A DNA stretch of 39,666 bases, taken from positions 1 through 39,666 of the forward strand of contig CANJQC010000041.1 in assembly GCA_947476295.1 (NCBI GenBank), in the 5' to 3' direction. Below the pieces are notes generated by a model. It worked only from the letters and a program-made list of their open reading frames with translations. It was not told the DNA's origin and searched no databases. This stretch comes from Planctomycetaceae bacterium (lineage in GTDB: Bacteria; Planctomycetota; Planctomycetia; Planctomycetales; Planctomycetaceae). Below, piece by piece: positions 8,438 to 10,578 of this stretch (position 1 is its first letter; each line of letters starts with the position of its first letter). Both the position numbers and the translations under genes were made by a program.

Positions 8438-8788
8438 TCAGGCGAACCCAACTCCTTCGATCGCGCCGTCCTCTGACATTGCCAGATTTTGAGCTGACAC
8501 GATTTTCGAGATCAGCAGCGGGCCGTACAAATGCGGAAACAAGTCTCCACCCCGCGAGGACTCCCACTTCAGGGCATTGCCAAGAGCATCAGCATCGATT
8601 GCTAGGAGCATCAGATCGGTCTGTCCGGCGTAGTATTTGCGAAAAGTACCTTCAAGCTGAGACGCCGCTGAAAAATGGATGAAACCGTCTTGCACGTCGT
8701 GCGGTGATCCAGTCCACGATTTGAGCAGTCGAATTTCTTCCCAGACAGCTTTCGAACAAATCTTGTAGATCAATTTTGACTCAGCCAC
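8438..8788 (-). CDS. DUF952 family protein
   Basis: The 116-residue protein matches the DUF952 pattern: an early IYKICSKAVWE, a central DGFIHFSAASQLEGT, and a late FPHLYGPL in which the HLYGP string is typical. Members are small, cytosolic, alpha/beta proteins of unknown function; no enzyme activity is established. There is no signal peptide. It converges on the prenyl synthase gene, and nothing suggests an operon partner. Confidence 0.9.
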   Translation of the reverse strand: MAESKLIYKICSKAVWEEIRLLKSWTGSPHDVQDGFIHFSAASQLEGTFRKYYAGQTDLMLLAIDADALGNALKWESSRGGDLFPHLYGPLLISKIVSAQNLAMSEDGAIEGVGFA

Positions 8789-9187
8789 GATTGTATTGCT
8801 CCGCCCTGGACCGAATGAGACGTTTATTGATGCTTTGTATACCTCGCGCAGGCTACATGAGATATTTCATGAAGTCGATTTTTGCGAGTTTCCGCTGCAA
8901 CTGATGCGCGACGAGTGCTCAGACCAGGTCGGTGTACTGAATTTGTCCGTCAAGTTTTACGGGATGTTGAGAAAAAACCACAAAATGTGTGGTCGGGTGG
9001 CCACTCGTCGGTCTTTCTCCACCTCTGATGATGAGGAAATCAGCGACTCCTGGAGTTCGCAGCGACCGTTTGCCTGGGAGAGTGGTAGAGTGAAATGGTC
9101 GCGAGGTAACTCGCAGACATCATTTACCTGCATGCACTGTGATATCTTGGCGCGGGCTTCGCCCGCAACCCAATTGTGTCGTTGTAG
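8789..9187. other. Gene-poor stretch
   Basis: No convincing gene in either direction. Two open frames (plus 8796-9227, minus 8957-9232) run through here into the repeat block, but both have low-complexity, arbitrary composition and no start signals. A small hairpin ACCACA / TGTGGT lies near 8978-8995, and GCGGGC-TTC-GCCCGC at 9152-9166 immediately precedes the palindrome block. Confidence 0.6.
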
Positions 9188-9400
9188 AAGGCCCGGAGGG
9201 CAGGCACATCCACTGCCGGTGGCGTGAGCCACCGGAAACGAATATTCGTGCGAATTGAGGCCTAAAAGGCCGACACAACAAATCTGTTCACGAGGCGTCG
9301 TGCATACCTTTGTGCCGGCCTTTCAGGCCTTGATTTGTCTCATGGCATCAAACCGGGGCCTCACGACCCCGGCAGAGAATGTGTCTGCCCTCCGGGCCTG
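9188..9400. repeat. Two-fold symmetric block of six hairpins (BIME-like)
   Basis: Six short palindromes form two inverted arms. Left arm: GCCC-GGA-GGGC (9191-9201), CCGGTGGC-GTGA-GCCACCGG (9216-9235), GGCCT-AAA-AGGCC (9259-9271). Right arm, mirrored: GGCCT-TTC-AGGCC (9317-9329), a GTGA-loop hairpin on the minus strand (9353-9372), GCCC-TCC-GGGC (9387-9397). Spacers between hairpins are equal in the two arms (14 and 23 bases). The outermost 20 or so bases match with one mismatch. In the middle hairpin, a T-A pair in the left arm becomes G-C in the right, and a G-C becomes T-G, so base pairing is kept. A CGAATATTCG palindrome (9239-9248) is in the left arm only. The arrangement resembles paired REP units, but the sequence is not one I recognise. 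Confidence 0.85.
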
Positions 9401-9531
9401 AATCGCAATCAGTTCTTTGGCATTGATTGACGAATCAAATGATCACGTCCCGACATTTCCACCGCTTCTGAATTCGCCATAAATCTTCTCAGAAAAACAA
9501 TACTCTTAACGTTTGCAGAGCAGAGCCTTCC

Positions 9532-10578
9532 ATGAACTCCGGCATCGTTCCGTCACGGAACTTCACAAATCCGATCGGTCTTCTGCTCCGCATGCTGACG
9601 TCGGGGCAGCGAGTTGCGTATTCGGCATTGATTCATGAGGCTATGAGACTGGTGTCGCGACCATTGAACCGTCTGCTTGCCGGTCGTGAACGACGACTAC
9701 TCAAAACTGCTCCTTCAGACGTCGCGCCCGTGATTCTGGTCGTGGGTGCTCCTCGCAGTGGCACGACACTGGTCTATCAGACTTTGGCAAGATATCTGGA
9801 TGTTACGTACTTCAGCAATCTGACGTCGCTGTTTCCGAATGCGCCGCTGGCGGGAACAAAGATGTTCCGCTGGTTGCCACGCCGACAGTCAGCAGACTTC
9901 AAAAACTTCTATGGTCAGACGGCTGGATTGAACGGTCCCAATGATGGCTTCAGTGTCTGGAATCATTGGTTAGGTGACGATCGCTATGTACCGCGTACGA
10001 ACTTGTCGGCTGATGAACAACGTTCGCTGGGACAATTCTTTCGCGTCTGGTGTGCAGCATTCGGCAAACCGTTCCTTAACAAGAACAACCGCAATGCCGG
10101 ATGTCTGAATCTGCTGTCCCAGGCGATTCCGCAGTCCAGCTTTGTCGTTGTCCGTCGCAATCCATTGCTGGTCGCTCAGTCACTCATCAAAGCGCGACAG
10201 CAGGTTCAGGGCGATAAATCGGTAGGCTGGGGACTGCACAGCCATTCTTCGGATATGACTGGCGATCCGCTGGCGTACGTTGATGATGTCTGTGATCAGG
10301 TACTGCAGATTGAAGCGGAACTCGATGCGCAGTTGGGACATATTCCGCCGAGCCGAATTGTCGAATTCACGTACGAAGGCTTCTGTGAAGCACCGGATGC
10401 GACGCTCCGCTGGATCGCGTCGCGCATCTCCGGCGTACAGCTCAAGGATGACCTGGTGCAATCTGAACTGCGTCCGTTTGAAGTATCGGCCACGCTGACC
10501 TTGTCGGAAATTGAAAAGGGACGGCTGCTGTCACGATTGCAGGCAGCAAGGATGGCGAAAGCAGTTGCCAATATTTAG
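9532..10578 (+). CDS. Sulfotransferase family protein
   Basis: The 348-residue protein has the two PAPS-binding signatures of sulfotransferases: the 5'-phosphosulfate loop GAPRSGTTL (72-80), following a beta strand VILVV, and the 3'-phosphate site RRNPLLVAQSL (208-218). It probably transfers sulfate from PAPS to an unknown acceptor such as a lipid, sugar or peptide. No signal peptide or clear membrane anchor is visible, although an amphipathic N-terminus could associate with membrane. It follows the palindrome block by about 130 bases and converges on the DUF1501 gene with only two bases between stop codons, so there is no room for a conventional intergenic terminator. Confidence 0.88.
   Translation: MNSGIVPSRNFTNPIGLLLRMLTSGQRVAYSALIHEAMRLVSRPLNRLLAGRERRLLKTAPSDVAPVILVVGAPRSGTTLVYQTLARYLDVTYFSNLTSLFPNAPLAGTKMFRWLPRRQSADFKNFYGQTAGLNGPNDGFSVWNHWLGDDRYVPRTNLSADEQRSLGQFFRVWCAAFGKPFLNKNNRNAGCLNLLSQAIPQSSFVVVRRNPLLVAQSLIKARQQVQGDKSVGWGLHSHSSDMTGDPLAYVDDVCDQVLQIEAELDAQLGHIPPSRIVEFTYEGFCEAPDATLRWIASRISGVQLKDDLVQSELRPFEVSATLTLSEIEKGRLLSRLQAARMAKAVANI

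Follow-up and report, generated by a model that had tools for sequence, protein, structure and literature searches.

The block at positions 9188-9400 of the window, a 39,666-nt stretch of DNA from a Planctomycetaceae bacterium (contig CANJQC010000041.1), is probably a gene-less, non-autonomous two-arm form of a REPtron-like single-strand DNA element. It is made up of two inverted arms with three hairpins each, in the order H1-H2-H3 / H3'-H2'-H1' (Table 1), and it is repeated throughout its own genome with its hairpin stems kept in pairing. In the complete form, the two arms enclose a transposase gene of a kind similar to TnpA-Y1 subclass 1.2, in the order arm (H1-H2-H3), tnpA, inverted arm (H3'-H2'-H1'). 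Gene-less units with unrelated flanks also occur, in a family of arms of other sequence. The labels H1 to H3, repeat B and repeat D were coined in this analysis.

Table 1. Coordinates of the two-arm block, its parts and the repeat that carries it in the window.
Feature	Positions	Strand	Basis
Two-arm block, H1-H2-H3 / H3'-H2'-H1'	9188..9400	.	Geometry scan, fold, own-genome copies
H1, left arm, GCCCGGAGGGC	9191..9201	+	Helix 1 of arm alignment, 92.9% of cells paired
CTG foot 5' of H2 (this clade NYTG, most others NYAG)	9213..9215	+	Putative guide role
H2, left arm, CCGGTGGC-GTGA-GCCACCGG	9216..9235	+	Helix 2, 99.1% paired
H3, left arm, GGCCTAAAAGGCC (H1-like)	9259..9271	+	Helix 3, 98.2% paired
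Centre between arms; place held by tnpA in the C5 copy	9272..9316	.	C5 comparison
H3', right arm	9317..9329	-	Geometry scan
H2', right arm	9353..9372	-	Geometry scan
CAG (+ strand) 3' of H2'; CTG foot of H2' when read on the - strand	9373..9375	-	Sequence
H1', right arm	9387..9397	-	Geometry scan
Repeat D, host of the window copy; left end CTTGGCGCGGGCTTCGCCCGCAACC, right end TCTTCTCAGAAAAACAATACTCTTAACGTTTGCAGAGCAGAG	9147..9525	+	Own copies, G001 and G012; outer limits by eye

The spacers are equal in both arms, with 14 nt between H1 and H2 and 23 nt between H2 and H3, and the 91-nt arms are identical at 64 of 91 positions without gaps. When the same geometry was scanned over all positions of the window, the mean was 22.8 (sd 4.25) and the next best position reached 43, against 64 for the block. 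Folded as single-stranded DNA, the block gave -71.2 kcal/mol (z -9.8), and none of 200 shuffles was as good. H1 and H3 proved to be variants of one hairpin (AGGCCYGRARGGCC).

The block is a dispersed repeat, found in at least about 40 places in its own genome (G000; 252 contigs, 5.99 Mb), where 81 matches were merged by hand to 40 entries; copy numbers for this genome are lower bounds, 40 of 62 first-look candidates having been scored, and two of the 40 entries are the two arms of a single locus on contig C5. The H3 pattern, with up to three mismatches allowed, was present at 93 sites, compared with four for the pattern read backwards, and a few further places were among them. The copies take several forms: 213-nt copies like that of the window, copies of about 186 nt with a short centre, fragments, and copies without either set of the outer sequences described below (C80 and C7:1144). 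One copy (L042; G000 C30:48775-48929) breaks off after H2 into TAATCGG-like units that continue up to the contig end.

Pairing was assessed in an alignment of 66 arms (A2), comprising both arms of 26 G000 copies, which were hand-picked from the 40 entries, as well as 14 tnpA-flanking arms from seven genomes. Truncated, deleted and interrupted copies were left out, as were the damaged arms of two loci (L098 and L120). Under the three-helix structure, 97.1% of 1182 cells were paired, although these arms are related and their left and right variants represent a few lineages copied many times, so that the cells greatly outnumber the independent paired changes. Of the 18 pairs, nine show both-sided changes; not one of the five measures used was reached in 500 shuffles. 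When the 3' partners were slid by 1 to 3 columns as a control, pairing fell to 20.6-57.3%. Examples of paired changes in H1 include GGCCC/GGGCC, GGGCT/AGCCC and GGTCC/GGACC. The left variants recur among copies, as do the right ones, which indicates that the two arms were copied together as one block.

What the initial annotation had observed in the window alone was confirmed by these results, and its interpretation was partly supported. It had described palindromes mirrored in reverse order across a centre with identical spacers, which agrees with the coordinates of the six hairpins, and the changes it listed (T-A to G-C, and G-C to T-G) and the C-GTGA-G cap are all present in the sequence. 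Its view that neither arm is a recent duplicate of the other is upheld by the variants common to several copies, and its proposal of a selected structure by the stems kept through paired changes. The search for further copies that it suggested showed the block not to be single-copy, with the stems preserved. Its count of three different palindromes has to be corrected, H1 and H3 being variants of one hairpin. The paired changes it noted in H2 stand in part: both-sided changes occur at columns 35/48, 36/47 and 38/45 of A2, but in the T-G pair only one side departs from the more frequent right-arm stem (CCGGGGCC/GGCCCCGG).

In the C5 copy, the arms are inverted, lie about 470 nt apart and enclose an ORF of 149 aa coding for an IS200-like Y1 transposase. 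The ATG follows 18 nt after the end of the upstream arm, and the downstream arm starts 1 nt past the stop codon. The C5 protein scored 83.3 bits against PF01797 (Pfam Y1_Tnp) and 64.7 bits against NF033573 (NCBIfam IS200/IS605; cut-off 55), but only 21.4 bits against NF047646 (NCBIfam REP_Tyr_transpos), where the cut-off is 80. Among the sequences of solved structures, only the transposase chains of 2xm3, 2xma and 2fyx matched it at E up to 0.001 (E 3e-4 to 6e-4); 2xm3 and 2xma are ISDra2 according to the structure comparison. A predicted model of another family member, L177, displayed an HUH Y1 fold (pLDDT 93.9), and its best PDB match was the TnpA of ISDra2 (E 1.6e-08, TM 0.61). ISDra2 and IS608 TnpA came first among the matches, which also included the TnpA-REP structure 4er8; the rmsd of the single-chain model was 8.0 against ISDra2 TnpA and 4.0 against 4er8, such a model being compatible with either a cis or a trans arrangement of the last helix. 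An IS200/IS605 TnpA of the HUH Y1 type is thus indicated by the family models for the C5 protein and by the predicted fold for L177.

Genes matching the C5 tnpA at E up to 1e-20 were found in 24 of 59 genomes (own, genus, family and class), and G000 itself holds a single tnpA of this family at that threshold. Eight genes of the C5 tnpA family, 62-100% identical, lie in seven genomes including G000. The six hairpins, read by eye in the flanks, are complete in six of the eight genes. At L098, the downstream arm is broken in H2' and H1' is lost, and at L120 the upstream arm is without H1. The H2' of L102 has a different stem, which is fully paired.

The Y1 proteins have been divided into 12 subclasses (Quentin et al., 2018; PMC6006769). 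As described there, subclass 1.2 is characterized by the motifs DH[IV]H, WQ and Y---Q--HH, a length of about 148 aa and a C-terminal tail, and it is found mainly in Cyanobacteria and Bacteroidetes. The same features recur here: the C5 protein has 149 aa, the C-terminal tail and the motifs DHVH, WQ and YVERQMDHH. On this basis, the C5 enzyme can be assigned to TnpA-Y1 subclass 1.2 by motif, as distinct from an assignment by the HMMs of those authors. All 13 proteins of an alignment of these enzymes (A1) have the WQ, the tyrosine, the glutamine and the two histidines. A contig scan with A1 gave 571 confirmed loci, and the best 80 of these, which lean towards the query, were combined with 30 loci of the 59-genome search into a set of 110 genes. 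The pattern DHxH..WQ..Y---Q--(H/R)H, with R allowed for the first histidine, was fitted by 106 of the 110 proteins of this set, the best 80 of 571 included. No cyanobacterial locus is among the best 80 of the 571.

Arm symmetry was scored by comparing the 190 nt upstream of each gene with the reverse complement of the 190 nt downstream, a z of at least 4 relative to 60 dinucleotide shuffles being taken as inverted arms. Two of the 110 genes had too little flank, and inverted arms were found at 89 of the 108 testable genes, a set that includes the best 80 of 571; the other 19 had no arm symmetry at z 4. By group, assigned by hand from the locus titles, and among the best 80 of 571, arms were present at 17 of 17 genes in Planctomycetota, 6 of 6 in Acidobacteriota, 15 of 17 in Bacteroidota, 21 of 26 in Verrucomicrobiota with Kiritimatiellota and Lentisphaerota, and 6 of 12 in others. 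The loci of the 59-genome search had arms in 24 of 30 cases. The controls were far lower: windows shifted by 650 nt at the same loci reached z 4 in 8 of 193 cases, and other ORFs did so in 0 of 79 cases in the own genome and 1 of 32 beside tnpA genes (together 1 of 111).

These numbers differ from the published description of subclass 1.2, in which REP is entered as 'no' in the table and typical IS200 end structures are stated in the text to be generally absent (Quentin et al., 2018; PMC6006769). The trait of having no REP-like sequences beside the gene does not hold for the genes with inverted arms counted here. No earlier report of such arms for subclass 1.2 was found in the open-licence PMC literature.

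A role of the hairpins in RNA, as a bidirectional terminator, in mRNA end protection or in attenuation, for which they would have been kept while the transposase is incidental, is quite improbable. Strong stems between genes would suit it, and REP elements of other bacteria have been assigned such roles (as described in PMC6006769). Against this, no Rfam match was obtained for the region 8500-10200 at E up to 1, the sequence has no T run 3' of the stems of the block, and the inverted plan lies tight on both sides of tnpA in many phyla and is rare beside other genes.

The arrangement of hairpins is also shared more widely than their sequence. Automatic detection returned a shared H2 stem for 62 of the 89 symmetric loci, although the automatic choice sometimes picked a neighbouring hairpin (e.g. 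L196, L200 and L217). A perfect hairpin on each side of H2 in both arms was present in 28 of these 62 loci and in none of 3100 shuffles, and three of the four flanking hairpins were perfect in 15 of 62 loci and in 0.2% of the 3100 shuffles, which keep base composition only. The plan of hairpin, H2 and hairpin recurs with unrelated stems, whose sequences vary between lineages, for example CCCAGGGC, CCTCGGGC, CACAGGGT and CCGGGGCC, and the H2 loop carries an insert in several loci.

The bases beside H2 were counted in the 45 of 62 loci kept by a stem rule (starting with C, seven or more in length and containing GG). The dinucleotide directly 5' of the H2 stem was AG in 33 of the 45 loci, against a background of 6.7% of dinucleotides, and TG in five, TG being that of the window's own clade; directly after H2', CT was found in 37 of 45 loci and CA in five. 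This foot looks like the foot of REP elements. GTAG was the foot in 4 of the 33 AG loci, and the GT[AG]G foot of REP/RAYT does not apply to the set. For a Marinomonas REPtron, cleavage at CT is described as being chosen by positions A3 and G4 within GTAG, its foot (PMC8266576). Extrapolated to a TG foot, this rule would select CA.

A mechanism can be proposed from these features. TnpA would bind H2 in single-stranded DNA through its stem and 5' foot (NYAG, here NYTG). H2 is the likely main site because it is the best paired hairpin and carries the constant foot, while H1 and H3 may be additional sites, marking the outer and the inner edge of each arm. Nicking by TnpA near the feet, at CT (or CA), would release or copy the arm-arm unit. 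The whole arm-tnpA-arm unit may sometimes be moved or copied as well. Many arm-arm units in G000 would later have been carried along inside other repeats.

Gene-less and duplicated units were also found in other genomes. G049 contains 44 matches to the arm of its own tnpA, many of them as facing pairs, and this arm is unrelated in sequence to those of the window. When 15 of the G049 blocks were aligned, 11 (L289-L299) had longer flanks in common and one (L300) shared part of the right flank. The remaining three (L301-L303) are 81% alike in the block, and their 60-nt flanks on both sides are 48-67% alike, no more than unrelated sequences score by this measure. The block edges AG and CT were fixed by the search pattern, while the drop in similarity outside them was found by alignment. 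In G039, a single-contig genome, 44 matches were obtained to another, unrelated arm, and five tandem arms with a period of 95 lie directly upstream of tnpA (L318; C1:3637696-3638171), like a BIME array. In G015, the arm-tnpA-arm unit is present twice (L099 and L120), 89.5% identical over 659 bp; the match starts at H2, one copy lacking H1, and stops about 30 nt past H1', with nothing matching beyond. This duplication suggests that the unit can move together with its gene. Uniform mobile boundaries were ruled out in G006, where most of the copies aligned sit inside another, longer repeat.

Many copies in G000 are associated with other repeats. Eighteen are bounded by TTTTGAAGTTGCG-like terminal repeats, with up to two changes allowed. 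The flanks of these 18 copies agree at length 8 (0.542, versus 0.313 for mismatched pairs), and nothing comparable is seen at lengths 4-7 or 9-11. An 8-bp target duplication is not expected from a Y1 enzyme, and the 18 copies were thus probably spread by another transposase. A search for an autonomous element revealed no facing pair of TTTTGAAGTTGCG-like ends in the listed sites besides the block copies.

The window copy and its closest sisters lie within repeat D, which has two constant ends and exchangeable palindromic interiors in G001 and G012 (L255-L260, L264 and L265). The right end of repeat D stops about six bases before the ATG of an ORF called at 9532. The window copy had no empty counterpart site among the matches listed, which come from draft contigs and in which no relative had the genes of both sides on one contig; G001:C394 has only the right side in common, from the block edge onward. 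Many short-form copies, including many with TTTTGAAGTTGCG-like ends, are inserted in repeat B. This repeat is a dispersed, near-perfect palindrome (GTTTAACCCGATGCCGCAGGCGAGG...CCTCGCCTGCGGCATCGGGTTAAAC) with conserved flanks (in G000 e.g. L069, L071, L075-L079, L081 and L082). Given the copies with terminal repeats and those in repeats B and D, hitch-hiking may explain much of the present copy number in G000.

These associations raise the alternative that the block is a mere passenger of other repeats, namely the elements with 8-bp duplications, repeat D and the hairpin repeat B, that the likeness to the tnpA arms reflects an old capture, and that TnpA now plays no part in its spread. The flank agreement specific to length 8 in the 18 copies and the position of the window copy within repeat D both favour this alternative, which is nevertheless unlikely. 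The C80 and C7:1144 copies have no outer terminal repeats in 130 nt on either side, and the G049 blocks with unrelated flanks are also contrary to it. Moreover, stem pairing has been kept through paired changes, and the arms remain with tnpA across phyla. A gene-less form of a REPtron-like element, part of whose copies may have been carried by other repeats, remains the preferred reading.

An integron attC-like recombination site was considered as well and rejected as extremely improbable. Many short-form copies lie inside AACCC...GGGTT palindromes, an IntI match over the cut-off exists in G000, and ends such as GTTTAAC...GTTAAAC resemble the attC consensus. Yet the AACCC...GGGTT hairpin is dispersed in its own right, has conserved flanks and forms a near-perfect stem, whereas attC sites are imperfect palindromes in gene-cassette arrays beside intI. 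Its matches show no clustering, and the long-form copies are without this hairpin. The integron-integrase-like gene over the curated cut-off (L057; G000 C36:4-654) is cut off by the contig start, and weaker pieces are present at C215:4-290.

Among known systems, the REP/BIME (REPIN) sequences with their TnpA-REP (RAYT), the REPtron of class 2, share several traits with the elements described here. Both have a low-copy Y1 HUH gene between inverted hairpin units, dispersed inverted pairs that lack the gene (BIMEs and REPINs), a short unpaired foot 5' of the hairpin, and tandem arms (here in G039). In contrast, the arms found here have three hairpins, with H2 between two others that are H1-like in the window's family. 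The REP foot is GT[AG]G, whereas here it is NYAG or NYTG, and the RAYT enzyme has Y---NP, whereas the enzyme here has Y---Q--HH and falls below the NF047646 cut-off. Judged by the sequence of its enzyme and foot, the block is not a member of the RAYT class, and it would work like a REP/REPtron system. The likeness to two inverted REP units seen in the initial annotation agrees with this, while its REP-type reading as worded does not fit, the foot in this clade not being GTAG. The REP-associated tyrosine transposase that it proposed to look for has a counterpart in the Y1 transposase between two such arms, although this enzyme is not of the TnpA-REP class.

The IS200/IS605 elements (IS608 and ISDra2; subclass 1.1) have the closest enzymes, by sequence and by the predicted fold of the family member, and duplication of the whole unit, as in G015, is common to both systems. 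The two ends of IS200 elements are unlike each other, each with a hairpin on the same strand. The ends here differ in being inverted copies with three hairpins each, and the tnpA has an extra C-terminal tail and a low copy number. TIRtrons also carry a Y1 gene (TIRYT) between long inverted repeats, which are at times dispersed elsewhere (Di Nocera et al., 2013; PMC3733652). Their repeats are described in that work as TIRs, some with self-complementary tracts, and not as three-hairpin arms. Of 26 TIRYT enzymes, 20 are listed in subclass 2.1 (Quentin et al., 2018; PMC6006769).

Subclass 1.2 was published in 2018 with neither typical IS ends nor REPs, and its substrate and role had therefore been open. 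The arms described here are a concrete candidate substrate for these transposases. The chances are about even for a broader proposal, in which subclass 1.2 enzymes would stand alongside IS200/IS605 and REP/RAYT as a third type of single-strand DNA element. Such elements would have three-hairpin inverted ends around a foot-tagged H2, would move with their gene like an IS and would spread as gene-less six-hairpin miniatures, across Planctomycetota, Verrucomicrobiota, Bacteroidota and Acidobacteriota. Should the arms prove to be the substrate, an origin would be given to a class of palindromes that lie between genes in several phyla. Also, the step from a mobile IS200 element to a domesticated REP system would become visible, because whole-unit duplication and gene-less miniature copies both occur in one system.

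Other Y1 genes of G000, with other types of motif, were picked by a simple motif near the locus middle, L052 and L056 being left out. Four of the eight testable genes (L051, L053, L054 and L055) have strongly inverted flanks. Thus, inverted flanks as such are not peculiar to subclass 1.2.
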